Virus record (IMG/VR): IMGVR_UViG_3300028653_000048
Coordinates: 1 to 26,793 of that record
Length of the DNA stretch: 26,793 nucleotides
Reading direction: 5' to 3' (one strand)
Origin: a virus
Shown in pieces: positions 2,620-26,569 of this stretch (position 1 is its first letter; each line of letters opens with the position of its first letter). Under the pieces are notes generated by a model, which had not been told where the DNA came from, did not search any database, and was given only the letters and a program-made list of their open reading frames with translations. The position numbers were made by a program, and so were the translations under genes.

Positions 2620-3264
2620 TTGATCCCCAGGTCCCTTCACCAGTTCTGGACCGGGCCGGCCATGCCGGCGGCGTTCGTGAAGTTCGCCGCCGGCTGGCGC
2701 CGCCTGCATCCGGACTGGGAGTACAGGTTGTGGGGCGAGGACGACGTCGCGTCGCTCTCGCTCCACAACCGGGACCTCTACGACCGGGCCGAGGAGCTCT
2801 GTCCGAACTTCTCCGGGCAACTGAAGTCGGACATCCTGCGCTACGAGCTTCTCTACCAGTTCGGCGGCGTCTGGGTCGACACGGATTTCGAATGTCTCAA
2901 GCCGATCGACGAATTGCTCGACGGGGTGCGATGCTTCGCGGCCTGGGAGATCGAGCAGCGCGTCGTCAACAACGCCATCCTGGGCTGCGAGCCCGGCGAC
3001 CGCTTCATGGACTTTCTCGTGATGGGCCTGATCGCGTCCGTCGTTCCCAGCCGCGGCCAGCGTCCGAGCAAGATCAGCGGTCCCCACTACCTGACCACCT
3101 GCTATGAGAACCGAGCCTGCGCGGGGCAGCTGACCGTCCTCCCGCAGGAGTTCTTTTACCCCTATGCCTGCAACGAGCTCGACCGTGCCGGCGAGGACTT
3201 CCCCGAGTCCTATGCCGTGCACCACTGGGCCAATCAACGCCGACTCCGGAGGAAGCCCCTGTGA
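2620..3264 (+). CDS. GT32-type glycosyltransferase (OCH1/TcdA-TcdB catalytic family)
   Basis: Predicted cytoplasmic sugar transferase of 214 residues that would use a nucleotide sugar with a divalent metal. The TTG start at 2620 is the only possible start that keeps the hallmark N-terminus IPRSLHQFW, and a stop (2611) closes the frame just upstream. The family core is clear: SDILRYELLYQFGGVWVDTD at about residues 70-89, where D87-T88-D89 is the metal/nucleotide-binding DXD motif, and a late HHW. No signal peptide or membrane helix is seen. It begins six bases after the capsid stop and overlaps the next gene by four bases, so it belongs to the head operon. Acceptor and sugar cannot be read from sequence; virion glycosylation is the leading guess. 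Confidence 0.86.
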   Translation: MIPRSLHQFWTGPAMPAAFVKFAAGWRRLHPDWEYRLWGEDDVASLSLHNRDLYDRAEELCPNFSGQLKSDILRYELLYQFGGVWVDTDFECLKPIDELLDGVRCFAAWEIEQRVVNNAILGCEPGDRFMDFLVMGLIASVVPSRGQRPSKISGPHYLTTCYENRACAGQLTVLPQEFFYPYACNELDRAGEDFPESYAVHHWANQRRLRRKPL

Positions 3265-3896
3265 AGCTGAGCGCCTCGATCATGGCGCATCCGTCGCGCG
3301 CCGACTGGGTGAAGCATCTCCAGGGCCACACTGGGATCCCGAGCGACTGCGTCGCCTGGGACCGCGGTGACGGGCTCTGGGACACCTGCTCTCGCGCCTG
3401 GCAGTGCCACGATCCGAAGGCCACGCACCATCTGGTGCTCCAGGACGACGCCCTCGTCTGTCGTGACCTGATCGCCGGCCTCGAGGATGGCCTCGAGAAG
3501 ACGCCGGCGCAGTTCTGCTGCCTGTACGTCGGGACGCCGCACGAGGGCGCCCGCGGCGTCCGGAAGGTCGACGAGCTGACCGCGCGGGCCGACCATGTGG
3601 GCGCCTCCTGGATCGTGATCGGCTCCATCCGGTGGGGGATCGCGCTCGTCCTCCCCACGGAGGTCGTCGACGACATGCTGCGCTGGTGCGAGCACGCTGA
3701 GGGCGCGGATGATGAGCGCATCGGCCGCTACTGCCGAGACGTCCTGCGCTGGAACGTCTGGCACCCCTGGCCGTCGCTGGTCGACCATCGCGCCGGCGGG
3801 TCTCTCGTCGGCCATTCCACCACGATCGCGCGCCGCTTCATCGGCGAGGACGCCTCGGCTCTCGATTTCGACTGGGAAGGCGCGGTGATCTCATGA
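3261..3896 (+). CDS. Phage glycosyltransferase-like protein, copy 1
   Basis: About 211 residues, starting at GTG 3261 in a GTGA overlap with the previous stop. The fold looks GT-A like: SIMAHPSR at the N-terminus, a WDT motif near residue 40, and HHLVLQDDALVCRDL at residues 56-70, where the QDD triad is the likely DXD-like metal site. The end, with WPSLVDH, a SLV motif and FIGEDASALDFDW, matches a family I recognise from actinobacteriophages that is annotated as glycosyltransferase. It shares this whole pattern with the gene at 5031, so the two are paralogues. No secretion signal is seen. Biochemical activity of the family is less certain than that of the GT32 gene upstream. Confidence 0.72.
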   Translation: MKLSASIMAHPSRADWVKHLQGHTGIPSDCVAWDRGDGLWDTCSRAWQCHDPKATHHLVLQDDALVCRDLIAGLEDGLEKTPAQFCCLYVGTPHEGARGVRKVDELTARADHVGASWIVIGSIRWGIALVLPTEVVDDMLRWCEHAEGADDERIGRYCRDVLRWNVWHPWPSLVDHRAGGSLVGHSTTIARRFIGEDASALDFDWEGAVIS

Positions 3897-4477
3897 GAAT
3901 CTCGCTGACCTTCGACACCGAGCATCCCGACAAGCCATGCCGGCCGGGGAACACGCTGCGTCGACTCGACGACCTGGCCTTCGCCGGAGTCAAGGCGACC
4001 TTCTTCATCCAGGGACTGTGGGCCCAGGCCTATCCGGAGCTGACGCAGCGCATCGTCCGCGACGGGCATGCGATCGCGAATCATTCCTGGTGGCACGCCA
4101 GCACGACCCTGCATACCGACGAGGGCGTTCGCCTGACTGTGACGAAGACCGAGGACGTGCTGAAGCGCCTCACTGGCGCGCGGACCCGCCTCTTCCGTCC
4201 CCCCTATGGCAACGGCCTCGAGGATGAGCGGGTGATCCGCATCGTCGAGAGCCTGGGCTATGACGTCGTCGGCTGGGACGTCGACTCTGAGGACTGGGAC
4301 CCGGCGATGACTGCGGACCGGCTCCTGGAGCGCGTCCCCGCGCAGCTCGAGACGGCCGGCGGAAATCCGGTCATCGTCTTCCATTCATGGCCCGACTGCT
4401 CGGCCGACGCGCTCCCCGAGCTCATCTTCGACCTGCGCCGCAGGGGCTGCGAGTTCTCTGTGATGGAGCCGTCGTGA
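3893..4477 (+). CDS. NodB-type polysaccharide deacetylase
   Basis: Predicted metal-dependent carbohydrate N- or O-deacetylase (CE4/NodB homology domain), 194 residues, essentially only the catalytic domain. Motifs in order: TFDTEH (D8 as probable base; the usual second Asp is Thr, with Glu10 next, as in DxE variants), HSWWH (H64 and H68 metal ligands), RPPYG (R102-G106), GWDVDSEDW (127-135) and IVFHSW (H164). All five motifs are present, so it is probably active. There is no signal peptide, unlike secreted peptidoglycan deacetylases, so it should act in the cytoplasm. It overlaps both neighbours by four bases. Acting on a sugar attached by the flanking transferases, such as an N-acetylated hexose, is a reasonable inference. 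Confidence 0.87.
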   Translation: MRISLTFDTEHPDKPCRPGNTLRRLDDLAFAGVKATFFIQGLWAQAYPELTQRIVRDGHAIANHSWWHASTTLHTDEGVRLTVTKTEDVLKRLTGARTRLFRPPYGNGLEDERVIRIVESLGYDVVGWDVDSEDWDPAMTADRLLERVPAQLETAGGNPVIVFHSWPDCSADALPELIFDLRRRGCEFSVMEPS

Positions 4478-5034
4478 GCGGCGTCTCGGACTACTGGGAA
4501 GAGCGCTACCTAGCCGGAAAGCGGGGCTCTGGTCCCGGCTCCCGGGGCGAGGCCGCCGAACGCAAGGCCGCGTTCGTCAATGCGCTGATCGCCGAGCATG
4601 AGGTCAACCGCGTGATCGACTGGGGCTGCGGCGACGGAGAGATCGCCCGCCGGCTCGTATGCCGCCGCTACGTCGGACTGGACGTGTCCCCCGCCGCGAT
4701 CGCGCTCTGCCAAGAGATCGTTGAGCTCCCCCGGCGCACCTGGATCGCCTTCGATGGATGGCGCCGTCCCCAAATGCCGGAGGCCCAGCTCTCGCTCTCC
4801 CTGGACGTGATCTTCCACCTGACCGAGGAGCGTCTCTACCGGCGCCACCTGCGCCTCGTCTTCGGCGCGGCGCCGCTCGTGTGCATCCACTCGTCCAATC
4901 GCAACGAGGAAGGCGAGTCGCACGTCCTGCACCGCGAGTTCGTTCCCGACGTTCCGAAGGGCTGGGAGGTCCTGCATCGTCCCGACGACGAGCGCGAGAT
5001 CGGCTTCTGGGTCTTCCGGAGGGCCGAGACGTGA
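4474..5034 (+). CDS. SAM-dependent methyltransferase (class I)
   Basis: Predicted methyltransferase of 186 residues. The start is GTG 4474, in a GTGA overlap with the deacetylase stop; a longer open frame upstream is unsupported. Motif I is clear: VIDWGCGDGEIARR at about residues 47-60, followed by the acidic ribose-binding Asp in YVGLDVS (residue 70). The N-terminus SDYWEERY resembles small methyltransferases found in phage and polysaccharide loci. The DPPY/NPPY motif of DNA adenine methylases is absent, so DNA modification is unlikely. Its place between a deacetylase and a glycosyltransferase suggests methylation of a sugar or modified amino sugar, but the substrate cannot be read from sequence. 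Confidence 0.8.
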   Translation: MSGVSDYWEERYLAGKRGSGPGSRGEAAERKAAFVNALIAEHEVNRVIDWGCGDGEIARRLVCRRYVGLDVSPAAIALCQEIVELPRRTWIAFDGWRRPQMPEAQLSLSLDVIFHLTEERLYRRHLRLVFGAAPLVCIHSSNRNEEGESHVLHREFVPDVPKGWEVLHRPDDEREIGFWVFRRAET

Positions 5035-5849
5035 CGCAGCTCTCGCTGTCGGTCGCGATGATGGCGCACCCGAAGCGCCGCGCTCAGGTGGACGAGATTC
5101 TCGCGCGCCTCGATCGCGGCGACGTGCAGGTTGTCTGGGACGAGTGCCAGAGCCGCTGGGATACAGGGAAGCGGGCGATGCTCGCGCACGACCCGACCTG
5201 CACGCACCACGCCGTGATCCAGGACGACGTCCTGGTCTGCCGCGATCTCTTCGCCGGCATGCTGAAGGCGCTCGAAAGCGTGCCCGCTGGCGCCCCGGTG
5301 TGCGGCTACGTCGGCCGCGTGCGCCCGTATGCCGAGATCGTCACCTACGCGGCCGCCAGGGCGCGTCTCACAGGCGCCTCCTGGCTGACCATGCACACCC
5401 TGAACTGGGGTCCGCTGATCATCGTCCCGACCGCGGAGATCCCCGACATGATCGCCCACTGCGACCCGCTGAAGGACATCCCCAACTACGACCGCCGTCT
5501 CTCGCGCTTCTTCGAGCTCGAGCGGCACGTGAAGATCTGGTACACGTGGCCCTCCGTCGTCGACCACGCAGATGGTCCCTCGCTGGTCCCGGGACGCATC
5601 GGCACGGACCGCCGGAAGGCCGTGCACACCCGGGTCGCGCACACATTCCTCGGCGCGGACCGTTCGGCGCTCGAGATCGACTGGTCGGGTGACGTTATCG
5701 ACATCGATGCGGCCGCCCTTGCCAACGACAAGATCACCTATCGCAACTCCGCCACCGGCCAGGAGTTGCACCTGCGTCCCACCAGCCCGCGGGCCCGGCG
5801 CCTGCAGGGTCTGCCGGCCTGGGAGCTCGTCATGGAGGGAGTCCAATGA
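5031..5849 (+). CDS. Phage glycosyltransferase-like protein, copy 2, with C-terminal extension
   Basis: About 272 residues from GTG 5031 (GTGA overlap with the methyltransferase stop). It is a paralogue of the gene at 3261: SVAMMAHPKR, SRWDTGKRAM, HHAVIQDDVLVCRDLF (QDD at residues 64-66), a WPSVVDH motif, SLVPGR and FLGADRSALEIDW occur in the same order. After that common end it carries about 50 more residues (nt 5698-5849) including ITYRNSATGQELHLRP and a final LQGLPAWELV. That extension resembles the small proteins often encoded between capsid and head-tail adaptor genes in actinophages, so this may be a fusion with a virion-associated domain. Predicted cytoplasmic; donor and acceptor unknown. 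Confidence 0.72.
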   Translation: MTQLSLSVAMMAHPKRRAQVDEILARLDRGDVQVVWDECQSRWDTGKRAMLAHDPTCTHHAVIQDDVLVCRDLFAGMLKALESVPAGAPVCGYVGRVRPYAEIVTYAAARARLTGASWLTMHTLNWGPLIIVPTAEIPDMIAHCDPLKDIPNYDRRLSRFFELERHVKIWYTWPSVVDHADGPSLVPGRIGTDRRKAVHTRVAHTFLGADRSALEIDWSGDVIDIDAAALANDKITYRNSATGQELHLRPTSPRARRLQGLPAWELVMEGVQ

Positions 5850-8608: not shown

Positions 8609-10507
8609 ATGCCTCCTTCCATGACCGTCGGCGATCTCGTTGCCTACCTGAAGCTCGACGATTCGGACTTCAACCGCAAGCTCGACGCCAATCACAAGAA
8701 GTTCCTCGGTACCGGCAGCGCGCTCAACAACGCCGCCAATGTCGGGGCCGTGGGCTTCGGCGTGCTCAGCGCCGCGATCATCAAGAGCACGGCCGACTAC
8801 ATGGCCTATGGCGCGGAGATCCGGCAGACAGAGCGATCGACAGGCGCGAACGCTCAGACGGCATCGAAGCTCGTCGGCGAGTGGAAGCGGTACGGCGTCG
8901 AGACCACGGCCGCCACCATGGGCACGAAGAAGCTGATGATGGCGATCGATGGGGCGCGCAGCGGCAACGCCAGCGCGGCCAAGGACTTCGAGGACCTCGG
9001 GATCTCCGTCGACAAGCTGAAGAGCATGAACGACACCGAGGCGATCGACGCCACCCGCAACGCCCTGGCCGGCATGGCCGCAGGCGCTGAACGGAGTCGC
9101 ATCGCTACCGATCTCCTGGGCCGTGGCTCGATTCAGATGAGCGCCTGGTACTCGGCGTCCGCGGATTCGATGATGGAGACCGATCAGAAGCTCAAGGACG
9201 CTGGGCTGATCTGGAGCGACGAGCAGGAGAAGAAGTACGCCGACGCAGTCAAGGCTGACGCCGAGCTCAAGATCGCCATGATGGGACTCGAGCAGACGAT
9301 CGCTCAAGAGGTCCTGCCGGCCATCGATCCGCTCATCAACTTCCTGAGCGACACGCTCGACAAGATGGGCCCGCTCGCGAAGGCGATCCCGTTCGTGACG
9401 CTGGCTCTCGGCGGATTCGTCGCCGTGGTGAAGATCAACAACGCGCTCAGGAGCGCCTGGGGCGATACCTTCGGCAGGCTGATCCCGAAACTGGCCGCGG
9501 AGACCACGGCGACCGAAGCAGAGACGGCCGCGCTCGGTGAGCAGACCGCGGCGATAGAGGAGAACACGATCGCTCGCGGAGAGAACGGGGCCGCGGCGCT
9601 CGGAGGCGGAGCGGAGGCGCTTGCCGGAGGAGGAGCGACGATGGCAGCCGGAGCCATCGGGACCGGCACCGCGGGCATGGGCGCAGGTAGCGCCGTTGCT
9701 GGCGGCGGCGTGGCGGCGATGGCGGGTGCCGTGGCCGGAATCATCGGGACGCTGGCCGTTGCGGGAGCCGCGGCGGTACTCGTGCAGAAGCTCGTCGGCG
9801 ATTGGGCCATCGGAGACGGCACGGGTGCTGCCAAAGTCAAGACGTATCAGGAACAGGGAGCTACGTTCCATCCCGCGGGCGGCAAGGGCGGCGCGGTCGT
9901 GCTCGTGGCACCTCACGGCTCGACGTTGAACTGGGAGGACGCAAAGTCCCGGTATGACCCGCTCATCTCGTCGTCCCACGCGCAGACAGACGCAACCGAT
10001 AAGAGCACCGCGGCGACCAAGGAGAACACTGCGGCCGTGAAGGACAGCACGGCCTCGCAGAAGTCGCTGGCGCAATCCATCCTCGACGATGCCGCCAAGG
10101 CCGCCGGCGCGGTCACGCAGCCGATGTCCAACAAGGAGTTCCTCAAGTACGCCGCCACGCTCCATCCCCTGCCGAACGCCGACAACGCACCGGTCCCGTA
10201 TGTGCCGACGCAGAAGCTCCCCAAGCGCAAAGCCGCGCACGGCGCCCACTTCAGGACGAACGGTCCCCTGCTCCTGCTGGTCGGCGACAACCCAAGCGGA
10301 CAAGAGGACGTGGATGTGACGCCGCGAGCCGGTGGCAAGCCCCGCGGTTCGGGCGGCGGAGACACGTACTACATCACGGTCCCGATCGCCATCGAGAAGC
10401 TCATCGGCACCGACGCGCGCAGCGTGCGCCAGATGGGCGACAAGATCGAGCAGCGGCTGGCACGGAAGACCAGGTACTCGCGCGAAGCGAGGTCGTCCAG
10501 TGGCTGA
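8609..10507 (+). CDS. Tape measure protein
   Basis: About 632 residues, starting at ATG 8609 after GGAAGGAG. It sets tail length; at the usual rule of about 0.15 nm per residue the tail would be near 95 nm. Order of parts: N-terminal LVAYLKLDDSDFNRKLDANH, a long helical region, a hydrophobic segment near residues 255-280 (IPFVTLALGGFVAVVKI), a Thr/Glu/Ala coiled stretch, a Gly/Ala-rich stretch leading into a second hydrophobic segment (about 369-396, AGAVAGIIGTLAVAGAAAVL), then a low-complexity Thr/Ser/Ala region. There is no lytic transglycosylase or peptidase motif in it. The large open frame on the opposite strand here is a GC-driven shadow. Confidence 0.9.
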   Translation: MPPSMTVGDLVAYLKLDDSDFNRKLDANHKKFLGTGSALNNAANVGAVGFGVLSAAIIKSTADYMAYGAEIRQTERSTGANAQTASKLVGEWKRYGVETTAATMGTKKLMMAIDGARSGNASAAKDFEDLGISVDKLKSMNDTEAIDATRNALAGMAAGAERSRIATDLLGRGSIQMSAWYSASADSMMETDQKLKDAGLIWSDEQEKKYADAVKADAELKIAMMGLEQTIAQEVLPAIDPLINFLSDTLDKMGPLAKAIPFVTLALGGFVAVVKINNALRSAWGDTFGRLIPKLAAETTATEAETAALGEQTAAIEENTIARGENGAAALGGGAEALAGGGATMAAGAIGTGTAGMGAGSAVAGGGVAAMAGAVAGIIGTLAVAGAAAVLVQKLVGDWAIGDGTGAAKVKTYQEQGATFHPAGGKGGAVVLVAPHGSTLNWEDAKSRYDPLISSSHAQTDATDKSTAATKENTAAVKDSTASQKSLAQSILDDAAKAAGAVTQPMSNKEFLKYAATLHPLPNADNAPVPYVPTQKLPKRKAAHGAHFRTNGPLLLLVGDNPSGQEDVDVTPRAGGKPRGSGGGDTYYITVPIAIEKLIGTDARSVRQMGDKIEQRLARKTRYSREARSSSG

Positions 10508-11808: not shown

Positions 11809-12557
11809 TGGCCCAGCCCTCTCTCGTCACCCGAGGGCTGGGAGCCCAGGGCAGCCTCATCGGGGCCGGCATGGGCACCGTGGCGCAGACCACGTCCACG
11901 GGGCTCTCCTGCACCGTCGACGCGCACGTCCGCATCACCGCGGCGCTCCGCATCGTCCTCGACGACGAGGGCCTCTCATGCGCCGTCCAGGCGCCGCTCA
12001 CAATCAGCGCCGTCCTCGACGATGAGTCCTACCTCGCGGCCCCCATGCTGCGTCTGGTCGCGCCGATGGCCTACCACCGTCCGGCGCTCTTCGCGGAGGA
12101 CATCACACTGGGCGAGGACTACAGCGTCGCCGAGGATCTGACGGCCTTCTACGGCGGCGCGAACGTGCGCCCGCAGATCCGCCGCTTCAGTCTCAAGCTC
12201 GGCGGCAAGGAAGTCCGCCGCGAGCTGCTGTCAGATCTGGAGTTCGAGCTGACGACAGCCGGCGGGCCGGAGACCGCGACAGTCACGCAGTTTCGCAGCG
12301 CGAAGGCGCTGCCGGCTGCCATCCTCAAGCGCCTGGTCTGCACCTACAAGGGCCAGCGCCTCTTCGGCGGCCGGCTCGAAGGCCGCACGCGCGACCTCGA
12401 GGAAGACGGCATGGGCACGACCCTGACGTTCAAGGGCACGATCTGCGATCTCGAGAACCGCGGGACCTTCCGCTGCGACTACGTCGATAGCGACCTCGAG
12501 CACTGGTCTCTCGACCAGCCTCCGGGTACCGGCGGGGATGCGGGCGGGCCGGACTGA
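11808..12557 (+). CDS. Tail-tip/baseplate protein, hub N-terminal-like
   Basis: About 249 residues from ATG 11808, sharing one base with the previous stop. The N-terminus has LVTRGLGAQGSLIGAG followed by two copies of a short beta unit (SCTVDAHVRITA and SCAVQAPLTISA, each ending near LDDE). The second half (about residues 125-240) has KLGGKEVRRELLSDLEFEL and TYKGQRLFGGRLEGRTR, resembling the first beta domain of tail hub proteins. The next gene looks like the remainder of the hub, so together they may form one structural unit encoded in two pieces. No enzyme motif is seen. Confidence 0.5.
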   Translation: MAQPSLVTRGLGAQGSLIGAGMGTVAQTTSTGLSCTVDAHVRITAALRIVLDDEGLSCAVQAPLTISAVLDDESYLAAPMLRLVAPMAYHRPALFAEDITLGEDYSVAEDLTAFYGGANVRPQIRRFSLKLGGKEVRRELLSDLEFELTTAGGPETATVTQFRSAKALPAAILKRLVCTYKGQRLFGGRLEGRTRDLEEDGMGTTLTFKGTICDLENRGTFRCDYVDSDLEHWSLDQPPGTGGDAGGPD

Positions 12558-13843
12558 TGGCCGACTACGACATCGGCCGCGACGCCCGCGGCATCTACCT
12601 GTTCAGCCAGTGGGGCGGCAAGTATTCGTCCACGGAGACGCCTGAGGGGTCGTTCGCGAACCCGAGCTCGCACCCCGGGAGCGCCGGCCGCATCTACTGG
12701 CAGCTATACGACGGGGTCAACACGACTGACTGCATCCGGCTGCTCGAGCTCGAGCTGCGCATGGGCGGCTGGTGGGCTTGGGGCGAGAGCTGGCTGCAGT
12801 TCAGCGTCTACGGACGCCGGACCCTCGACGGCAAAAACCGCTGCTGCGTCTACCGGCAGGTCATCCGCCGCTTCGGAGCTGAGGACGACCCTCACGACTG
12901 GCACCACGTGCCGCCGCTCTCGCTGTACTTCGACAAGGACGAGGAGGTGCGCTGCATCGTCGGGCGCATCGAGGCCCTCGGGACGTTCGCCGAGCAGCCG
13001 ATCACGAGCATCCCCGCCAAGACGCGCAGGTATTGGGACCAGATCGGCATCCAGAGCCCGCCGCCGCACGGGGTCATCGTCAAGAAGGCGCGCGTCTTCG
13101 GCAAGGCGCCCGTGCACTACCGCTCCGGCAAGGCCGTCATCTACGTCACCGACGCCATCAAGGACATCATCGCGCCCAAGTTCAAGGCGAAGGGCCTGAA
13201 GGGGACGCTCGCCGTGGACCAGCTCTACTTCAAGGAGCTGCCGAAGACGGAGCGCGACGCCCTCGAGGAAGCCAACGCCATGCTGGGACGCGACTACTTC
13301 GCCTGGTCAGACGACGAGATCACCTTCCAGGGCCACGACGCCGGCAGGGTGAGGCGCCTCGACATCACCGACCCGCGCGTGACGTTCGGACTCTCCGACG
13401 ACGTCGACCAGACGCGGAGTCGCGTCCTCGTGCAGTTCACCAACCGGCTCGGCAAGCCCCGGGAAGTCCTGGTGAAGGGGAACGCCCCGGTGCTCCGCGG
13501 ACAGGTCCGTTCGACCACGATCTCGGCTCCGGACTCCGTGAAGACGCTGCGGGGCGCGCGCCTCTACGGAAAACGCTACCTGCGTGACCGCAAGAAGCTG
13601 ACGCAGTCCAACACCGTGACGGTCCGCGGCGTGATCCCCGGCTTCGGCGACGCGCTCCTGGTGCGTCCCGGCGAGCGGGTCACGCTGGTCGGCGCCAAGG
13701 GAGCGACGAAGCGCATGCGGATCACGACGGTACGTCCCCGTCCTCTCGACTGGGAGTCCGAACTCTCGTTCGATATCGAGCCCTGGCGGCTGGACAGGTG
13801 GCTCGCCGCCCATGCCGCCCAGGGCCACACCGTCAGATTGTGA
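12557..13843 (+). CDS. Baseplate hub / tail tip protein
   Basis: About 428 residues, the ATG at 12557 sharing one base with the previous stop. Predicted large mixed alpha/beta protein. The N-terminal 130 residues are aromatic-rich (YDIGRDARGIYLFSQWGG, GGWWAWGESWLQF) and may be a carbohydrate- or tip-specific domain. The later part has SGKAVIYVTDAIKDIIAP, ALEEANAMLGRDYFAW and, near the end, VTVRGVIPGFGDALLVRPGE followed by WESELSFDIEP. These late motifs are typical of hub (gp27-like) proteins of actinophage siphoviruses, which form the trimeric tip under the tube. No peptidase or lysozyme domain is seen in this gene. Confidence 0.65.
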   Translation: MADYDIGRDARGIYLFSQWGGKYSSTETPEGSFANPSSHPGSAGRIYWQLYDGVNTTDCIRLLELELRMGGWWAWGESWLQFSVYGRRTLDGKNRCCVYRQVIRRFGAEDDPHDWHHVPPLSLYFDKDEEVRCIVGRIEALGTFAEQPITSIPAKTRRYWDQIGIQSPPPHGVIVKKARVFGKAPVHYRSGKAVIYVTDAIKDIIAPKFKAKGLKGTLAVDQLYFKELPKTERDALEEANAMLGRDYFAWSDDEITFQGHDAGRVRRLDITDPRVTFGLSDDVDQTRSRVLVQFTNRLGKPREVLVKGNAPVLRGQVRSTTISAPDSVKTLRGARLYGKRYLRDRKKLTQSNTVTVRGVIPGFGDALLVRPGERVTLVGAKGATKRMRITTVRPRPLDWESELSFDIEPWRLDRWLAAHAAQGHTVRL

Positions 13844-13853
13844 GGAGGCGAGG

Positions 13854-14219
13854 ATGGCTAATGACACCACGGGCATCGTTGGCGACCGGAGGCGCAACCC
13901 GTTCCCGTCGATGAACGACACCGAGTACGAGCTGTTCCTCCTCACCATCGAGAAGTCGGTGAACAAGGGCGTCTCCGAGGCCATGGCCAAGTACCGGCAG
14001 AACAGCTGTGAGCCGCACGTGACGAGTACGGGCCACCTGAACACCGCCGTCTTCGGCTCAACCGAGCACGGGATCATCGGCCTGGACGACCGTGTGTCTT
14101 CGCTCGAGCGCGCCATGGCCACCCTGTCGCGAGTCACGTGGATCGCTGTCTCGGCCTTCATCGTCGCCTTCATCGGCCTGCTCGTCGGCATCATCCAGTT
14201 CGCCATCGTCGGGAGGTAG
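13854..14219 (+). CDS. Small coiled-coil membrane protein, holin/XhlA-like
   Basis: About 121 residues from ATG 13854 with a strong GAGGAGGCGAGG ribosome site; the frame is open 42 bases further upstream but without a site. Residues 75-92 form a short coiled coil (LDDRVSSLERAMATLSR) and residues 93-117 a single hydrophobic helix (WIAVSAFIVAFIGLLVGIIQ). One C-terminal helix after an amphipathic coil resembles XhlA/hemolysin-like lysis accessory proteins. It lies between the hub and the lipoprotein gene, two genes upstream of the endolysin, so it is a candidate holin or lysis helper. The alternative is a membrane-anchored tail protein. Confidence 0.5.
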   Translation: MANDTTGIVGDRRRNPFPSMNDTEYELFLLTIEKSVNKGVSEAMAKYRQNSCEPHVTSTGHLNTAVFGSTEHGIIGLDDRVSSLERAMATLSRVTWIAVSAFIVAFIGLLVGIIQFAIVGR

Positions 14220-14224
14220 AGACC

Positions 14225-15409
14225 GTGCGCAGACTCACGCCCATCATCCTCATCGCCGCGCTCGCGCTCCTGCTCGCCGGCTGCGGCGAGACCGCCATCA
14301 CGGGGCAGCTCCCGAGCGGCGTGGACGTCGCCTCCGGACAGTACATCGCCACGGTCGACGCCGCCGGCGGGTACGCGGTCGTGCCCTACACGCCGCAGCC
14401 GGTGCCCACGGTGACCGTCACGGCGACCCCGCTGCCGGGTCCGACCGTCACGGTGACCGCGACTGCGTCGCCGAGCACGTCCGCCACGCCCACGGTGACG
14501 CCGACGCCCACGCCGACCAGCACGGCCGTTGCGGCCGGACCTGCCACGGGCACCGTCTTCACCAAGTCCAGCGCGCTCCACCTGACTTCCGGCCATGACC
14601 TGGTCTACAACGGCGTCGATTTCGAGGGCTCCGGCTACGGCTCCGGCGACTGGGGCGCGCTCGTCTTCCTCGAGGCGCAGGGCCCGCTCTACAACATTAC
14701 CTTCAAGAACTGCATCATCGGCACCAACACGAACACCGGGAACGGCGTCAAGATCGTCGACCTCGGGGGCGGCCGCGTCCACGACATCACCTTCGATCAC
14801 TGCGCCTTCAAGTACCAGCCGCGCATGGGCTTCGAGGTCAACGGGCGCTCGATCGAGAACGGCGTCGGCGGCCAGGGCTACCTGCGCGTCAACCTCACCA
14901 ACTGCACCTTCGCCGCCTCGGCCGGCGAGGCCGTCTCCTACGACTCCAACGTGGGCGACCTCTCCGGCTACTGCACGGTCTCCGGCAACGTCATCGCCGG
15001 CGCCGGCGTCGGCACCACCTACCAGTACGCCAAGACCTTTGAGATCAACGGGACCCGGAACATGACCGTGCGGAACAACACGGTCGGCGCCGGGCGCGAC
15101 GGCATCTTGAACCTGCAGGGCCGCGACTCGCAGCCCGTCAACTGGACCTTCAGCGGCAACACCTGGGACGGCACCTCCATCCCGGCCGGCGTCACGCCCG
15201 CCTACGAGCTCGCGTTCTTCCAGAACATCAAGGGCGGCCTCACCATGGCGGACCGCATCGTCAACGGCGGCGGCTACCCGTCGACGACCTGGGGCTACAT
15301 GACCGGCTGCACCGGGCTTGACCTCTCCGCCTGCACCGTGACCGGAGCTCCCAAGCAGTTCCCGTCCGGGTACATCGCGAGCTCGTCCGGCAACACGTGG
15401 CCGAAGTGA
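14225..15409 (+). CDS. Predicted beta-helix lipoprotein (surface protein)
   Basis: About 394 residues from GTG 14225, after a GGGAGGT ribosome site. The N-terminus is a lipoprotein signal: two Arg, a hydrophobic core and the lipobox LAGC (C20), so the mature protein should be a membrane-anchored lipoprotein outside the cell. Then a Thr/Pro/Val-rich linker (about residues 60-105, e.g. VTPTPTPTSTAV), then repeated short rungs such as NITFKNCIIG, DITFDHCAF, VNLTNCTF and MTVRNNTV. These match a right-handed parallel beta-helix as in tailspikes and pectate lyases. No catalytic set can be pointed to, so enzyme, decoy receptor or exclusion factor are all open. It lies between a holin-like gene and the endolysin. 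Confidence 0.75.
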   Translation: MRRLTPIILIAALALLLAGCGETAITGQLPSGVDVASGQYIATVDAAGGYAVVPYTPQPVPTVTVTATPLPGPTVTVTATASPSTSATPTVTPTPTPTSTAVAAGPATGTVFTKSSALHLTSGHDLVYNGVDFEGSGYGSGDWGALVFLEAQGPLYNITFKNCIIGTNTNTGNGVKIVDLGGGRVHDITFDHCAFKYQPRMGFEVNGRSIENGVGGQGYLRVNLTNCTFAASAGEAVSYDSNVGDLSGYCTVSGNVIAGAGVGTTYQYAKTFEINGTRNMTVRNNTVGAGRDGILNLQGRDSQPVNWTFSGNTWDGTSIPAGVTPAYELAFFQNIKGGLTMADRIVNGGGYPSTTWGYMTGCTGLDLSACTVTGAPKQFPSGYIASSSGNTWPK

Positions 15410-15420
15410 AAGGGGAGGTC

Positions 15421-16221
15421 ATGCGCCTGCTCACCCTCACGACCCCATACATGCAGGGCCCGGACGTCGCCCTGATGCAGGCCGCGCTGATCAAGCGCGG
15501 CTGGCTCGGCAAGGACCACACTCACGGGCAGTTCGGGAAGGCCACGGCGGACGCTTGCTACCGGGCCAAGTGGCACCTTGGCTACCAGGACGTCACGCAC
15601 GGCGGCGGCGGCCTCTTGTACGACTACCTGACCGGCGCCCGCAAGCCGACCGCAGCCATGGTCAAGCGCGCGCACGAGCGCGCGGCCGCAGCCGCCGGCG
15701 ACAAGCTCCGCGCCGGCGCTGTCGCCTACCTACACAGCCACCTCGGCGACCGCGAGCGCACCGGCCACAACGACTGCTTCGCGACCGACTGGTGGTATGG
15801 CCGGCACGTCGACGGGAGCCGCGACTGGGGACCGTGGTGCATGATGGGCGCGAGCGCCGCCTACGCCCACGCCGGCAGCTCGCTCTTCCGGGCCGGCGCG
15901 TACTACGCCAGCTGCAGCGCGCTGCTCGCCGACGTCGACCGCGGCCGGCACGGGCTCGCCTACGTGCACGATTTCCACGACCTGCTCCCCGGTGATCTCA
16001 CGTTCTGGCGCCTCTACCCGGGAAAGAGCTACACGAGCTGGGAGCGGTGCGATCACATCGAGACCGCGCGCGCTCCGGGAGTGCATGTCGGGTCGGTCCT
16101 CACGATCGGCTGCAACACCATCCCGCAGAACGGCAACGGCGACGAGGCCAACGGCGGCGGCGTCTACGAGCGCAGCCGGCCGGTGAGCCTGCTCTACCGC
16201 GTCGTGCGAGTGGGCGCCTGA
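15421..16221 (+). CDS. Endolysin: peptidoglycan-binding domain plus CHAP/NlpC-like peptidase
   Basis: About 266 residues, ATG 15421 after AAAGGGGAGGTC; an upstream GTG is possible but has a worse site. Residues 10-55 look like a PG-binding-1 repeat (MQGPDVALMQAALIKRGWLG followed by QFGKATADACYRAKW). Residues 115-231 resemble a CHAP/NlpC-type Cys peptidase: the segment RDWGPWCMMGASAAY has C140 as probable nucleophile, and CDHIETA has H212 as probable catalytic His. There is no signal peptide, so it would need a holin to reach the wall. The alternative is a tail-associated lysin used at entry, since it lies among tail genes. Confidence 0.78.
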   Translation: MRLLTLTTPYMQGPDVALMQAALIKRGWLGKDHTHGQFGKATADACYRAKWHLGYQDVTHGGGGLLYDYLTGARKPTAAMVKRAHERAAAAAGDKLRAGAVAYLHSHLGDRERTGHNDCFATDWWYGRHVDGSRDWGPWCMMGASAAYAHAGSSLFRAGAYYASCSALLADVDRGRHGLAYVHDFHDLLPGDLTFWRLYPGKSYTSWERCDHIETARAPGVHVGSVLTIGCNTIPQNGNGDEANGGGVYERSRPVSLLYRVVRVGA

Positions 16222-18053
16222 TGCAGCCTGGAGTCACGCCAGGAGCGACCTTCGAGTTCCACGCGGCGCGCTGCAACGGCGGCGGCCTGCCGGGCATCAA
16301 CTCACCGCTCACCGTGATCGCGAAGGACACGAGCGGCAACGGCAACGACGCTACTCTGGTCGGCTTCGGCGGCCTCGTCATCGGGAACCCGGACAACAAC
16401 CCGACTACAACGGTCACCGACCTCGCGAACAAGAAGCGCGGCTCACAGTTCCCTGTGCAGCTGGTCGCGCCCATCACGAAGCTCACCGCGTACCTGCGGA
16501 ACACGGGGACCGGCCACGCTGCCTGCCACGTCAAGGGGCTCATCTACGCCGACAGCGCGGGCGCTCCCGGCGCTCTGCTTGCGACGACCAACGAGGTCGC
16601 CATCGCCGACAACATGGCGACGACCGCAGTCGACCTCACGCTCGCCTCTCCGTACACCCCGACGTCGACTAGCCCGCTCTGGCTGGTCGTGCACGGGGAC
16701 GCCTCATGTACCGGGCTTCAGTTGTGGTACGTCAGCCTCCCCGATGGCGTGTCCTGTCTCGGCGCTGATACCTACGCCGATGGTCCCAGCGACCCGTTCG
16801 GCAGCAACACGCCCGGCGTGGCCTACTTCGCCATCTCGGCCACGTTCGCAGGAGCCATCGGCCGCGAGTGGTCCGGTTATGAGGGCGACACGACGAGCAA
16901 GGTGCCGGTCTACAAGGCCGTCAATCTCGCCGTGAACCCGTCCTTTGAGACCGACTCGAACTCAGACGGGCTGGCTGACCACGCCTCGTACTACACGGCC
17001 ATCGCTGGGACGCGGGCCTACACGCGACCCGCCGGTAGGGTGTCCGGCGTCTGTCAGCGCATGGTGCAGACGGGCGGCGTGGGCGATTCGGCCCTGAGCG
17101 CCGGGCTCGTCGCGCAGCGGACTCTTCCCGGCACCGTGAACCCCGGCGACGTCATCGCCTTTTCGGCATGGGTGAAGGGAAGCACTACCGGGTGCACCAT
17201 CCAAATGGTCCCCGTGATTCGCGCCGCTGGCGGGACTGCATCCGGAGCGAACATGCTCGGCCCGACCATCACGCTCTCGGGGTCGTGGCAACGGGTCTAC
17301 GGCGAATACTCTGCCGGTGCCTACGCCAACTATGCGGACCTCACCCTGCGCACCGTGGGCGACTTCGACAACGGCGACGTGCTCGACCTCTACGTCGACG
17401 ACGTGACGATTGAGAAGCGCGGCTGGATGGCCGGGGCCTACTTCACAGACCCCGTCGCGGCATCCGGCGGGCCTCACCTGACGCTCGACGGTAGCGATGA
17501 CACGGTGAACCTTCCGGCCGCTGTTGCTCCCGGTCTCGGGGATTTCAGCCTAGACGGGTGGGTCTACCTGCCCGCGCACATGCTCGCTAATCACGGGATG
17601 CTTCTGGGCTGCAACTTCAACGGCCCCGGCGGCTACGGCATCTATGTGGGCGACACCGCCACCGAGCCGCAGACGTTCTACCTTCAGACGTTCTTGTGCA
17701 CGTCGGCAGCGGGCGACCGCCTCACGACCGGGAACCCGCCGGGCGTCACCGCGAACGCTTGGCACCACTTCGCCTCGACGTTCGACCGCGACGGAAACAT
17801 GCGGGCGTGGCTTGACGGCGTGGCGGGCTCGAACGTAGCTATCTCGTCGAAGTCGACGCTCAACCTCACGACCGCGCCGAACATCGGCACCTACTCCGGC
17901 TGGTTCGCGTCCTTCATGCTCCAGTCGGTCCGCGTCTACCCGTTCGTCCTGAGTGACGCTCAGATAGCTCAGAACTACGCCGCCGGTCCCTTCTGGCTCA
18001 ACCACTCGGCTCGCGGCCCGGTCAACAGTCTCGGCAGGAGGATGGTCGCATGA
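16221..18053 (+). CDS. Receptor-binding protein with carbohydrate-binding and LamG domains
   Basis: About 610 residues from ATG 16221, one-base overlap with the endolysin stop. Order: an N-terminal beta-sandwich (residues 60-220, with KLTAYLRNTGTGHAACHVKG); a CBM4/9-like middle beginning at NLAVNPSFETDSNSDGLADH and containing IAFSAWVKGSTTGC and LYVDDVTIEKRGW; and a C-terminal LamG/concanavalin-like domain (GPHLTLDGSDDTVNLP, FSLDGWVYLP, WHHFASTFDRDGNMRAWLDG, QSVRVYPFVLSDAQIAQNY). Several sugar-binding domains in one tail gene point to host surface recognition. There is no signal peptide, so it is most likely a virion protein. No glycosidase motif is seen. Confidence 0.8.
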   Translation: MQPGVTPGATFEFHAARCNGGGLPGINSPLTVIAKDTSGNGNDATLVGFGGLVIGNPDNNPTTTVTDLANKKRGSQFPVQLVAPITKLTAYLRNTGTGHAACHVKGLIYADSAGAPGALLATTNEVAIADNMATTAVDLTLASPYTPTSTSPLWLVVHGDASCTGLQLWYVSLPDGVSCLGADTYADGPSDPFGSNTPGVAYFAISATFAGAIGREWSGYEGDTTSKVPVYKAVNLAVNPSFETDSNSDGLADHASYYTAIAGTRAYTRPAGRVSGVCQRMVQTGGVGDSALSAGLVAQRTLPGTVNPGDVIAFSAWVKGSTTGCTIQMVPVIRAAGGTASGANMLGPTITLSGSWQRVYGEYSAGAYANYADLTLRTVGDFDNGDVLDLYVDDVTIEKRGWMAGAYFTDPVAASGGPHLTLDGSDDTVNLPAAVAPGLGDFSLDGWVYLPAHMLANHGMLLGCNFNGPGGYGIYVGDTATEPQTFYLQTFLCTSAAGDRLTTGNPPGVTANAWHHFASTFDRDGNMRAWLDGVAGSNVAISSKSTLNLTTAPNIGTYSGWFASFMLQSVRVYPFVLSDAQIAQNYAAGPFWLNHSARGPVNSLGRRMVA

Positions 18054-20065
18054 GCCTCTTCAAGCGCGGCACGCTGTACTACTCGCACCAGTTCCACAAC
18101 GACCTCGGGACGGCAGAGAACCCGACAGCACCGGAGGCGCAGCTCCTCAAGCCGGATGGGTCGTGGGCCGCGCTGACCGCTCCCGCCCAGCAGAACAGCA
18201 AGGTCGGCCTGTTCGGCGGCTCGCTCGACATGAGCAACGCCAGCACGTACCCCGTGGGGCGCTACGTCCTGCGCATCGCCGGGACTGTGACCACGGCGAA
18301 GGTCGTCGGGCTGACGGAGGCCTTCGAGTTGGTGGAGAGCCTGCCCGACGACGTGGCCGCGCTCGCCGCGACGGCCGTCTGGGGCGCAGGCACGAAGGCG
18401 CTCACCGACAAGGCGGGCTTCAGCCTAGCCGCCGACCAGGCTGTCAACGTCACGAAGGTGGGCGGCACGGCGCAGACCGCTGGTGACATCTACGGCCAAA
18501 TCGCCATCCTCCGGACCCGGCTCGGCGTGCCCAGTGTCGATTTGACGACCGACGTGGCAGCAGTCAAGAGTGACACGGCTGCGGTGAAGGCGAAGACAGA
18601 CAACATCCCCTCCAGCCCGGCGGCGGTCGGCTCGGCTATGGCACTGACGAGCGCATACGACCACGCGAAGGACGACGTCTATGGGCGCCTGGGCGCGCCC
18701 ACGGGCGCGAGCATCGCAGCCGACATCGCCACCCGCTTGGCGGCTGCCGGGTACACGGCCCCCGACAACGCGACCATCTCTGCCATCGCCGGGTACGTCG
18801 ACACAGAGGTCGCCGCCATCAAGGCGAAGACGGACAACCTGCCCGCGACTCCGGCCAGCAAGGCCGACGCCGACGCGGCGACCAGCGCAGCCAACGACGC
18901 CAAGGCGAGCGCCGATCTCGCGAACAGGACGGCCCCCGACAACGCGGGTGTTGCCGCCATCAAGGCCAAAACCGACAACCTGCCGGCCTCGCCGGCGGCC
19001 ACGGGCGCTGCCATGTCGCTCACGACGGCCGAGCGGAACAACATCGCGAGCACCGTCTGGACGACCACCAGTCGTCAGCTCTCAGTCGGCGGCATCTCGG
19101 CCATCGTCGCCGCCATCTGGGACGAGGTCACGAGCTCGCACAGCACGACGGGCAGCTTCGCCAAGCTGCTCAAGGACTACCTGGACGCCGCGGTCTCAGC
19201 CGTGAAGGCGAAGACCGACGGGTTGCCGGCGGATCCGGCGAGCGAATCGCTCCTCGAGGCCGCGGTCGCCGCCATCCCGCAGCCCGACCTCAGTCGCCTG
19301 GACGTCGCGGTATCGACGCGCCTTGCGGCGAGCTCGTATGCCGCCCCGGACAACAGCGGCGTCGCCGCCATCAAGGCCAAGACCGACAACCTGCCGAGTG
19401 ACCCCGCCGACGAGTCGCTGCTTGAAGCGGCGATCGCGGCGGCGACTCCCGAGATCGATCTGAGCACCGTGACGCTGCCGCTCGCCGCAGTGAAGGCCAG
19501 GACCGACAACCTGCCGGCGGACCCGGCCAGCCAGGCGGACATCCTCGAGGCTCTGTCCGACGCTCTCGACCTGAGCGCGGTGACCTCGGCGATCGCGGCT
19601 CTGGGAGAGCCGGCTCAGGCGGATGCCCTGAACGCTCTCGAGGTGCTCGTCCAGGCTGTGAAGGCCGTCACCGACGGAATCGACGCGAGCCCGCTGACCG
19701 TGACCTTCGAGAGCCCCGTATCGGCCTCCGGGGTTGTGACGGTAGAGCAGGGTGACAGCTACGCAGTGAGCCACGGTCGGATCGGGCTGCCCTTCCTGGT
19801 CGCCGACAGCTCTCACTCCATGAGCCTGGACGGGGACGGCGTGACCGTACAGCTGCGCTCGTCACAGCAGACCTGGGAGGCCGCGAGCGTAGTCAGTACC
19901 GAGGCCGGCTGGACGGTGATCTTCACGCCGACGGTCGCCGAGACGGCTGCGCTGACCATCTCCGAGCAGATCTACAAGCTGATGGCGATCTACGGCGAGG
20001 ACGACGTGCGCAGTTTCGCCCGCGGCACGCTCACGGTGGAGGCCGAGATCCCAGAGATCCCCTGA
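18050..20065 (+). CDS. Repeat-rich tail fibre
   Basis: About 671 residues, ATGA overlap with the receptor-binding gene. The N-terminus (YYSHQFHNDLGTAENPTAPE onward) is an Ig/BppU-like module, then about 400 residues of Ala/Asp/Lys-rich heptad-like sequence with seven copies of a unit close to A(I/V)KAKTDNLPxxPA. Such units are common in phage fibre stalks and are expected to form a trimeric coiled or mixed shaft. A TSSHSTTGSFAKLLKDYLDA segment sits within the repeats, and the C-terminus is a beta-rich tip (GVVTVEQGDSYAVSHGRIG to AEIPEIP). It ends the tail module; a stem-loop follows at 20083. Confidence 0.8.
   Translation: MSLFKRGTLYYSHQFHNDLGTAENPTAPEAQLLKPDGSWAALTAPAQQNSKVGLFGGSLDMSNASTYPVGRYVLRIAGTVTTAKVVGLTEAFELVESLPDDVAALAATAVWGAGTKALTDKAGFSLAADQAVNVTKVGGTAQTAGDIYGQIAILRTRLGVPSVDLTTDVAAVKSDTAAVKAKTDNIPSSPAAVGSAMALTSAYDHAKDDVYGRLGAPTGASIAADIATRLAAAGYTAPDNATISAIAGYVDTEVAAIKAKTDNLPATPASKADADAATSAANDAKASADLANRTAPDNAGVAAIKAKTDNLPASPAATGAAMSLTTAERNNIASTVWTTTSRQLSVGGISAIVAAIWDEVTSSHSTTGSFAKLLKDYLDAAVSAVKAKTDGLPADPASESLLEAAVAAIPQPDLSRLDVAVSTRLAASSYAAPDNSGVAAIKAKTDNLPSDPADESLLEAAIAAATPEIDLSTVTLPLAAVKARTDNLPADPASQADILEALSDALDLSAVTSAIAALGEPAQADALNALEVLVQAVKAVTDGIDASPLTVTFESPVSASGVVTVEQGDSYAVSHGRIGLPFLVADSSHSMSLDGDGVTVQLRSSQQTWEAASVVSTEAGWTVIFTPTVAETAALTISEQIYKLMAIYGEDDVRSFARGTLTVEAEIPEIP
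18581..19684 (+). repeat. Seven degenerate 30-bp repeats coding AIKAKTDNLP
   Basis: Copies at 18581, 18815, 18956, 19199, 19367, 19487 and 19655, each about 30 bp; the last copy is divergent (AVKAVTDGID). Spacing is 234, 141, 243, 168, 120 and 168 bp, always a multiple of three. They encode a coil unit of the fibre shaft. Confidence 0.85.
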
Positions 20066-20802: not shown

Positions 20803-21231
20803 TCAGAAGGAGGCCCTGGCGCACGCATACACGACGAGCGCCAGGAACAGGACCAGGATGATCCCGAGGATCGTCAGCGCCACTGCGTAGGCCGCCCCGA
20901 TCCCGACCTTCACTTTATCCCCGGCGGAGAGCGGCTGGCCCGCCTGCCGCTTCGCTACTGCGCTGGCCGTGAGGGACTTCACCGTGGAGCTGCCGCCGAG
21001 CTTGTGGCCACAGTGGGGGCACGCCTTCGCCTGGTAGCTCACGGTACCGCCGCATGCCGGGCAGTTTACGAGCGCGGCTGCCGGCCGAGCGCGCGGCGCG
21101 GACGGCACGCTCTGCGGCTGAGCTGCCGGAGCTGCGACTGCGTCCATCCTCGATCCGCAGAATGCGCAGACCGCGGAAACTCCCGGGTTCGAGCCGCCGC
21201 ATTTCGGACACCTGCTGACCTGGCTGCTCAA
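20803..21231 (-). CDS. Double zinc-ribbon membrane protein
   Basis: About 142 residues on the minus strand, start TTG at 21231 after an AAAGGAGGGG ribosome site; a longer open frame upstream lacks a site. Two zinc ribbons are visible: CPKC (8-11) with CAFC (22-25), and CPAC (57-60) with CPHC (71-74), joined by an Ala/Pro linker. A C-terminal hydrophobic helix follows (about 109-137, GIGAAYAVALTILGIILVLF). This is a typical tail-anchored zinc-ribbon protein with the ribbons in the cytoplasm. It is the only minus-strand gene I accept, and it converges on the HEPN-like gene with a six-base gap. Its function is unknown; a moron affecting the host membrane or superinfection is possible. Confidence 0.72.
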   Translation of the reverse strand: MSSQVSRCPKCGGSNPGVSAVCAFCGSRMDAVAAPAAQPQSVPSAPRARPAAALVNCPACGGTVSYQAKACPHCGHKLGGSSTVKSLTASAVAKRQAGQPLSAGDKVKVGIGAAYAVALTILGIILVLFLALVVYACARASF

Positions 21232-21368
21232 CGTCCCCTCCTTTGCCGGGCCCCCTTCCCTGTGTCGACAGAGTAGCACCCCCGCTTGAATGCGCTCCCC
21301 TCCCGCAGACCCGTCTGCCAACCGTGGGAGCCTTGGACCGTCAGCGAAGCGGCCCAAGGGAGGCGCGC

Positions 21369-22085
21369 ATGCGCCGATCGACAGTCCTCATCCTGGTCAT
21401 CATGGCGCTCGTCGCCGCGATCATCGTCCTCATGGGGGTCAGCCTGACTCCCGGAGCGAAGGCAGCCAACTCTCCGAGTCCATCGCCGAGCTGGTCTGCG
21501 ACCCCGTCACCGACTCCTTCCCCGGCGCCAGCGGAATTGGTCCGCCACGCGCTCCAGACGCGGAAGAACGCGCTCCGGGCATGGCGCAGGTGGAATCGGG
21601 CGCGGCGCTGCTTCTGCCTCGGAAATCGCCCGTTCGGTCCGGCGACCCCGCAGAGGGGAGCGACGGCCGAGACATGGAGCAAGGCGGCGGCCGGCTGGAA
21701 GGCGAACCGCGTTGACTGGCTAAGGCGATTCCGGCATCTGCGGGAGCGCATGAAGCACCCGGGCGGGAGCTCGAATGGCGCGCGCTGGATGCCGCTCGCC
21801 CGGTGGGTAGGGTGGCCGCGCGCAACTCTCAGCCAACTCTCATGCCTGATCATGAATGAGAGTTCAGGAATCGAGCGGAACATCAGCGCGACGAACGACT
21901 GGGGACTGACGCAGCTGCACCGCGGACCGGACGGCTGGGAGTCCACCTTCTGCCACGTCATGCACGCCGCCTGGGCGAAGACGCTCGACCCCGAGTACAA
22001 CCTCCGCTTCGCCCTCTACATCTGGCGCATCGTCCAGCACGGATCGTTCCTGCCAGCGTGGCGCGGCGATCCGGCGGTGAGCTGA
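21369..22085 (+). CDS. Secreted lytic transglycosylase-like protein (SLT/lysozyme-like)
   Basis: About 238 residues, ATG 21369 after AAGGGAGG. An N-terminal signal peptide or signal anchor (RRSTVLILVIMALVAAIIV) is followed by a possible AKA cleavage site near residue 32. Then comes a Ser/Pro linker (SPSPSPSWSATPSPTPSPAP), a basic helical part, and a C-terminal lysozyme-like domain: SCLIMNESSGIERN with E164 as likely catalytic Glu, DWGLTQLHRG in the place of the usual GLMQ motif, and a late YNLRFALYIWR segment. The protein should act outside the membrane without a holin. It may be a lysis enzyme, an entry factor expressed late, or a wall-remodelling moron. It overlaps the next gene by one to three bases. 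Confidence 0.78.
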   Translation: MRRSTVLILVIMALVAAIIVLMGVSLTPGAKAANSPSPSPSWSATPSPTPSPAPAELVRHALQTRKNALRAWRRWNRARRCFCLGNRPFGPATPQRGATAETWSKAAAGWKANRVDWLRRFRHLRERMKHPGGSSNGARWMPLARWVGWPRATLSQLSCLIMNESSGIERNISATNDWGLTQLHRGPDGWESTFCHVMHAAWAKTLDPEYNLRFALYIWRIVQHGSFLPAWRGDPAVS

Positions 22086-23525: not shown

Positions 23526-23852
23526 ATGAGCCTGATCGAGTTCGTGAACCTGATCGTGCTCGCGTTGCTGGGAGGCTTCCTCACCTTCCTCGCGACGCAG
23601 CTCATCAAGCAGAAGGCTTGGCCCGCCAGGGTCAAACTGGCCCTGTCGTTCGTGCTGGCCGCGGTCTTCGCCCTGGCGACCGCCTGGAAGGCTGGCGATG
23701 TGCTCGGCTTCGCGTCAGCCTGGCACGGAATGACGGCCCAGGCGTTCGTCACTTACTTCGTCACGTACTGGACCGTGGCCACCGTCTGGTACCACGTGGT
23801 CTTCAAGGGCGTGCCCTGGGCAGTGGGCCTGGGAGCGTTCCCGAAGAAGTGA
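23526..23852 (+). CDS. Three-TM holin-like membrane protein
   Basis: 108 residues from ATG 23526 with an excellent site (GAAGGAGG, then ATC ATG). Three hydrophobic helices near residues 4-27 (EFVNLIVLALLGGFLTFLA), 36-57 (VKLALSFVLAAVFALATAWK) and 74-93 (FVTYFVTYWTVATVWYHVVF), and a short basic tail. Length and topology match phage holins, and it follows the transglycosylase operon. It is followed directly by the strong terminator at 23907. As there is also a holin-like gene at 13854, which one acts as holin cannot be decided from sequence. Confidence 0.65.
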   Translation: MSLIEFVNLIVLALLGGFLTFLATQLIKQKAWPARVKLALSFVLAAVFALATAWKAGDVLGFASAWHGMTAQAFVTYFVTYWTVATVWYHVVFKGVPWAVGLGAFPKK

Positions 23853-25819: not shown

Positions 25820-26569
25820 ATGCAGACCTCCGAATCCATCGACCAGCTGGCCGTGTCGCTGGTGAACTTCACCGAACAGGTGAAGAACCCGCTGGCAGAC
25901 CAGACGGCCAAGGTGAAGCACCGCAACGGCGGTGAGCACACGATCAACTACCCGGACTTCTCCGCCGTTGTCGAGTCGAACCGGCCCCTTCTGGCGCAGT
26001 TCGACCTCGCCGTCGTCCAGACCATGCTGGTCCAGGGCGACATGGTAGGCGCGGCGACCATGATCATCCACGGATCCGGCCAGTGGGTGCTTCTGGACCC
26101 CTTCTACGTCCCGGCGGGCGAGACGCCGCAGGACTTCGGCGGCGCGATCTCCTACTCCCGCCGCTACAGCTACTTCGCCGCCCTCGGCCTGGTGGCTAGT
26201 GACGACCACGGGCAGGCGCCGCAGGCCTCGCGGCCGAAGGCCGGGCCTGGGCCGGCAACGCCGGCCCAGCAGAAGAAGATAGGCGCTGAGGCCGGAAAGG
26301 CGGGAGTCGGAGACGACGAGCTCGCTGCTGTCTTGGAGCGCCGCTACAAGGTCGAGACGACTGGGGAGCTGACGAAGGAGCAGGCCTCGGACCTCATCGA
26401 CCGTCTGGCGGCTGAGGGCGAGCGCCGCAGGGCTGCCGCCGCGGCCGGTGCGGACCCGGTCACCGGAGAGGTCGCGGCCGGCGACGAACCGCCCGGCATG
26501 GACGCCGAGGAGTACCGCCAGAGCCGCGGCCAGGGACCAGCTCCCGCGGACGGCGGGACGATGCTGTGA
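25820..26569 (+). CDS. erf: ERF-family single-strand annealing recombinase
   Basis: 249 residues, ATG 25820 with GAGAGGA upstream. ERF domain over about residues 1-135: DFSAVVESNRPLLAQFDLAV, MIIHGSGQWVLLDPFYVP and the hallmark AISYSRRYSYFAALGLVASD followed by DHGQA. These proteins coat and anneal single-stranded DNA in phage recombination and genome circularisation. The rest is a Pro/Ala linker and a helical segment (ATPAQQKKIGAEAGK, LTKEQASDLIDRLAA) often seen at the end of phage recombination proteins, then an acidic, disordered tail, where such proteins often contact SSB. Overlaps the next gene by one base. Confidence 0.88.
   Translation: MQTSESIDQLAVSLVNFTEQVKNPLADQTAKVKHRNGGEHTINYPDFSAVVESNRPLLAQFDLAVVQTMLVQGDMVGAATMIIHGSGQWVLLDPFYVPAGETPQDFGGAISYSRRYSYFAALGLVASDDHGQAPQASRPKAGPGPATPAQQKKIGAEAGKAGVGDDELAAVLERRYKVETTGELTKEQASDLIDRLAAEGERRRAAAAAGADPVTGEVAAGDEPPGMDAEEYRQSRGQGPAPADGGTML

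Follow-up and report, generated by a model that had tools for sequence, protein, structure and literature searches.

The DNA analysed here (the window) is a virus record of 26.8 kb, whose phage source is known from the sequence alone. Because the window has a GC content of 68%, the host is probably a high-GC Gram-positive-type bacterium. The tape measure gene (8609-10507; PHROG, E = 1e-13) is separated by several probable tail genes from 12557-13843 (plus strand), which is assigned to a probable tail protein by position only and has no database match. The next plus-strand gene, 13854-14219, encodes a small protein of 121 aa with one C-terminal membrane span. It is followed after 5 nt by the lipoprotein gene under study (14225-15409, plus strand; 394 aa, GTG start, TGA stop at 15407-15409) and, after a further gap of 11 nt, by an endolysin gene (15421-16221, plus strand; PHROG, E = 3e-6, with a weak Pfam match to PG_binding_1 at E = 0.012, below the cut-off). 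Further downstream, 16203-18053 encodes a LamG protein (Pfam, E = 5.5e-12) and 18050-20065 a long fibre-repeat protein.

In position and topology, the 121-aa protein resembles a lysis-cassette product. In Attoomi, Moss and Mudpuppy, too, small proteins that span the membrane near their C-terminus are encoded beside lysis genes, which suggests that 13854-14219 encodes a lysis-cassette membrane protein. Since 14225-15409 is packed between this gene and the endolysin gene, it probably belongs to the late genes of the lysis cassette and not to those of lysogeny, and the gene order points to late expression together with the endolysin.

Gene start and lipoprotein signal

The coordinates and frame given to this ORF in the first-pass annotation check out. 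A ribosome-binding site (GGGAGG, 14211-14216, plus strand) is located 8 nt ahead of the GTG at 14225. The sole in-frame start on the 5' side (14138) lies within the preceding gene and the next one on the 3' side (14321) lacks a good ribosome-binding site, so there is no good alternative start that would remove the export signal.

PROSITE profile PS51257 defines a lipoprotein by a positively charged n-region, a hydrophobic core and a lipobox ending in a Cys at position 15-35. Residues 1-20 of the product (14225-14284, plus strand; MRRLTPIILIAALALLLAGC) match this profile, with a hydrophobic core that scores 2.29 and the lipobox LAGC that had been noticed at the outset, in which C20 is the predicted lipidated Cys. 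As a chance control, all start codons followed by at least 50 open codons were scored in the six frames of the window; only 4 of 858 pass, including the gene under study and two nested starts in one frame. The LptM signal/lipobox model resembles the N-terminus weakly (E = 0.0037, below the cut-off of the model). Tat export was set aside, as the RRLTP stretch lacks the twin-arginine consensus. Judged by sequence, the product is a bacterial lipoprotein according to this definition, with a mature part of 375 residues.

Linker and predicted beta-helix domain

The signal is followed at residues 58-106 (14396-14542, plus strand) by a linker of 49 residues that is 33% Thr and 22% Pro, in agreement with the initial reading of a Thr/Pro linker. 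A match to PHROG 15511 (E = 2e-5) was dismissed as low-complexity similarity of the linker (residues 55-115).

The remaining 288 residues (107-394; 14543-15406, plus strand) form a predicted right-handed beta-helix domain of about nine rungs, with repeats such as ITFKNCII, ITFDHCAF, VNLTNCTF and MTVRNNTV. The rung motif occurs eight times in residues 119-394 against a mean of 1.02 in shuffled sequences, and none of 20,000 shuffles reaches eight. A stricter motif occurs four times (0.13 expected), which again none of 20,000 shuffles reaches. These values are optimistic because the motif was devised after the protein had been read, yet they bear out the rungs described initially. The spacing between nine rungs, which were chosen by eye around the motif matches, is 27, 30, 34, 28, 30, 27, 32 and 26 residues, or roughly 29. 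By its rung pattern alone, the sequence of the product fits the definition of a right-handed beta-helix.

Lipobox and rungs were also scored elsewhere as a control. At the tail/lysis junctions of eight actinophages with a related capsid, no protein has a lipobox and no long protein is rich in rungs, the sole protein with p < 0.01 for the same motif being a membrane protein of 73 aa (two motifs, p = 0.007). A chromosome-wide survey of comparison loci yielded six lipobox candidates among 4372 ORFs, none of them rung-rich.

Structure models of the product have low confidence. The AlphaFold2 single-sequence models reach a pLDDT of 41.0 for the full-length protein and of 45.6 for the domain (pTM 0.52), in which the first hundred residues are modelled best (block means of 51-77). 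All Foldseek matches are non-significant (best E = 0.3 in the PDB and 0.09 in the viral set). In the PDB lists right-handed beta-helices predominate, represented by pectate lyases of family 3, hemolysin A and tailspikes. The viral list is less uniform and is headed by a phage pectate lyase fragment. Taken with the rungs and their spacing, these models and matches make a beta-helix fold of residues 107-394 likely. The architecture of a membrane-anchored, predicted beta-helix, as proposed in the first-pass annotation, is supported by lipobox and rungs. The protein is predicted to be lipid-anchored outside the host membrane, with a rod-shaped domain of a sugar-binding type on a flexible stalk.

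Relatives and known surface proteins

No homologue was detected by tblastn of the full protein and the domain in 50,697 phage records (E up to 10), nor in IMG/VR, the GTDB contigs, 12 capsid-related genomes and records, 397 genomes from the phylum of a Streptomyces genome or 301 genomes from the phylum of a Chloroflexi MAG. These results rule out close relatives and not distant ones, because the contig scans require near-exact 8-residue words and the searches of the 698 genomes had no positive control. A sequence search of the PDB and PADLOC gave no match either. Searches for sister phages with the upstream tail, endolysin, tape measure and LamG genes returned nothing useful, and the fibre-repeat gene gave repeat-based matches only. 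Neither the window as a whole nor its tail and lysis genes have a close relative in these searches. Capsids from metagenome contigs and from Streptomyces, Mycobacterium, Arthrobacter and other phages share approximately 30-49% identity with that of the window. The closest capsid among the GTDB contigs (47%; locus L025, 10001-10927) is found on a contig binned as a Chloroflexi MAG, where the neighbouring head genes are conserved too and the tail genes are not shared.

Phage-encoded surface lipoproteins are an established kind of protein. Llp of phage T5 is a lipoprotein that blocks receptor use and whose gene adjoins the receptor-binding protein gene; such exclusion proteins keep phages from adsorbing to fragments of lysed cells and to cells already infected, and other coliphages carry lipoprotein genes downstream of a gpJ-like tail-tip gene (PMC9586334). 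The present product resembles T5 Llp and Cor as a phage lipoprotein with a proposed anti-adsorption role towards cells and debris. The Llp and Cor genes adjoin tail-tip or receptor-binding genes (PMC9586334); here a probable tail gene with no database match lies upstream, with one small gene in between. Llp is described as small and acting at an outer-membrane protein receptor, whereas the mature part here has 375 residues with a stalk and a predicted beta-helix, and unlike those of Llp and Cor its gene precedes an endolysin gene.

The lipoprotein Ltp of Streptococcus thermophilus phage TP-J34 sits outside the membrane of its Gram-positive host and prevents DNA from being injected; its gene is part of the lysogeny module and transcribed in the prophage (PMC3952083). 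An outer-face lipid anchor, predicted in our case, and a disordered stretch ahead of the folded domain are common to both proteins. However, Ltp has 142 aa and two repeat (helix-turn-helix) domains, which were not found in our product in Pfam, PHROGs and NCBIfam scans, and the gene studied here lies with late genes between the tail and endolysin genes instead of in a lysogeny module. Protein gp41 of Cutibacterium acnes phages, an Ltp-like candidate proposed for superinfection exclusion, shares a signal or transmembrane N-terminus, a disordered region and a C-terminal domain of mainly beta structure, but it has about 180 aa and a predicted cystatin/VirB8-like fold, with no beta-helix (PMC11480721).

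The label 'tailspike-like' given initially holds for the resemblance in fold only. Tailspikes and depolymerases with a right-handed beta-helix share the predicted fold class and appear in the fold-search lists, but the product has no sequence match or significant fold match to any tailspike, and its N-terminus is a lipoprotein signal, with no particle-binding domain recognised there. To our knowledge, tailspikes as a class normally carry no export signal. Polysaccharide lyase family 3 is represented by the top PDB fold match of both models, a pectate lyase of Caldicellulosiruptor bescii close in size to the domain, but with E values no better than 0.3, TM-scores of at most about 0.4 and 9-14% identity, the match gives no evidence of membership. 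No lyase or hydrolase family matched above its cut-off, the best Pfam match being DUF4957, far below it (E = 0.12). The product therefore departs from Ltp, Llp/Cor, tailspikes and the named lyase families in defining features that were tested; it belongs to a known kind, the phage-encoded surface lipoprotein, as a variant with a predicted beta-helix outside every named family tested. A phage lipoprotein with a beta-helix was not found described in a limited check of the open-access literature.

Possible roles and further genes of the window

The protein most likely masks or trims host surface sugars late in infection. We tentatively place first, as possible and short of probable, receptor masking by a protein that is anchored at the cell surface and binds glycans; T5 Llp and TP-J34 Ltp use other folds to exclude phages. 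The product would be exported by Sec as a lipoprotein, the signal being cut ahead of C20 and C20 lipidated, which would leave the protein suspended on the outer side of the cytoplasmic membrane. Its Thr/Pro stalk of 49 residues would extend into or through the cell wall and present the right-handed beta-helix, which would bind an envelope glycan. Produced late with the tail and lysis proteins, the protein would occupy the glycan receptor of the phage's own tail, so that superinfecting phages would be excluded and new progeny would not stick to the dying cell or its debris.

Several observations are consistent with receptor masking. Lipobox, start and ribosome-binding site are all in place, the rung pattern far exceeds that of the shuffles, the fold-search lists mostly contain glycan-acting right-handed beta-helices, and the gene is tightly packed after the probable tail and membrane-span genes and ahead of the endolysin gene. 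T5 Llp (PMC9586334) and TP-J34 Ltp (PMC3952083) provide precedents. Against it stand the absence of homologues in the searches above and the low confidence of the structure models. Moreover, T5-type exclusion proteins are described as products of early infection, whereas this gene is placed among late genes, and the neighbouring probable tail protein, which has no database match, may not be the receptor-binding protein.

Close behind masking comes a second mechanism, in which the protein would act in the lysis cassette as a polysaccharide lyase or hydrolase tethered to the membrane; together with the endolysin it would trim wall-linked or capsular glycan, so that cells open and virions escape. 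The endolysin gene directly downstream, 11 nt away, speaks equally for this lysis role; family 3 pectate lyases head the fold-search lists, which include other polysaccharide-active beta-helices, and a fragment of a phage pectate lyase leads the viral list. The phage also has other sugar- or wall-active genes, namely a polysaccharide deacetylase (3893-4477) and an exported transglycosylase-like protein (21369-22085). Against it, no lyase or hydrolase family matched above the cut-off, no fold match is significant and catalytic residues cannot be placed without an alignment. We rate this role, too, as possible and short of probable, a little below masking. The balance tips slightly to masking because T5-type exclusion genes adjoin receptor-binding or tail-tip genes (PMC9586334) and a probable tail gene lies upstream here.

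The other two explanations are less likely than masking or glycan cleavage. The protein might be a tail appendage of the virion (tailspike or fibre) with a signal-like N-terminus, or one used for assembly, and a lipobox that is not used or unimportant. Its position among tail genes, with LamG and fibre-repeat proteins downstream, fits this idea, and a tail protein of Microbacterium phage Min1, encoded at the tail/lysis junction, combines collagen-like and beta-helix-like parts. Such an appendage is improbable given the complete lipoprotein signal, the well-placed ribosome-binding site with no good alternative start, the lack of a lipobox in any junction protein of the eight actinophages and the fact that no trimerisation or particle-binding domain was recognised in the product. 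A moron that alters the cell surface of the lysogen was one of the functions suggested initially. Phage exclusion lipoproteins can be of this type, as shown by Ltp, which is encoded in a lysogeny module and transcribed in the prophage (PMC3952083). Here this function is weakened further and quite improbable, as the gene sits inside a tightly packed same-strand run of late tail and lysis genes (gaps of 5 and 11 nt), a scan of 12000-18500 for sigma-70-type sites gave neither a consensus promoter nor a terminator, and the window, itself a fragment, has no recognised integrase or repressor.

It is conceivable, if doubtful, that a tailspike-type glycan-binding or -cleaving beta-helix was moved from the virion to a lipid anchor on the infected cell and became a late surface tool that masks or destroys the phage's own receptor, so that progeny leave cleanly. 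If true, this would be another route of receptor control beside Ltp and Llp. Of the exclusion lipoproteins compared here, Llp targets a protein receptor and Ltp the injecting phage; a lipid-anchored beta-helix would suggest cell-side action on a glycan receptor by phages of Gram-positive-type hosts. A single gene would then suffice to test whether the receptor is masked or removed at lysis.

Some further observations were made alongside. The Min1 tail protein (locus L110, 33162-35519), which was noticed through a beta-helix-like fold match, seems split over several reading frames, none of which shows an export signal, and is overlapped in the public annotation by a doubtful opposite-strand gene. 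In the window, a block between the capsid and connector genes (2620-5849) encodes a DXD glycosyltransferase (PF04488, E = 4e-13) and the deacetylase (PF01522, E = 2e-27), which is similar to PdaB. Its other products are a protein with a weak match to methyltransferases and, from 3261-3896 and 5040-5849, two proteins of unknown family that resemble each other; the block possibly serves glycosylation of the virion or cell surface. In the second exported protein (21369-22085), a strongly hydrophobic segment at the N-terminus is accompanied by a Ser/Pro linker, and transglycosylases (SLT) are matched weakly (E = 0.11, below the cut-off); the protein is perhaps a secreted wall hydrolase. Unlike the other genes of the window, which are mostly on the plus strand, 20803-21357 is on the minus strand and encodes, as judged by eye, a double zinc-ribbon protein with a C-terminal membrane span. 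A 108-aa protein with at least two membrane spans (23526-23852) has a holin-like topology far from the endolysin gene, and 25820-26569 encodes an ERF-family single-strand annealing protein (E = 3e-11) with a weakly GemA-like C-terminal part.
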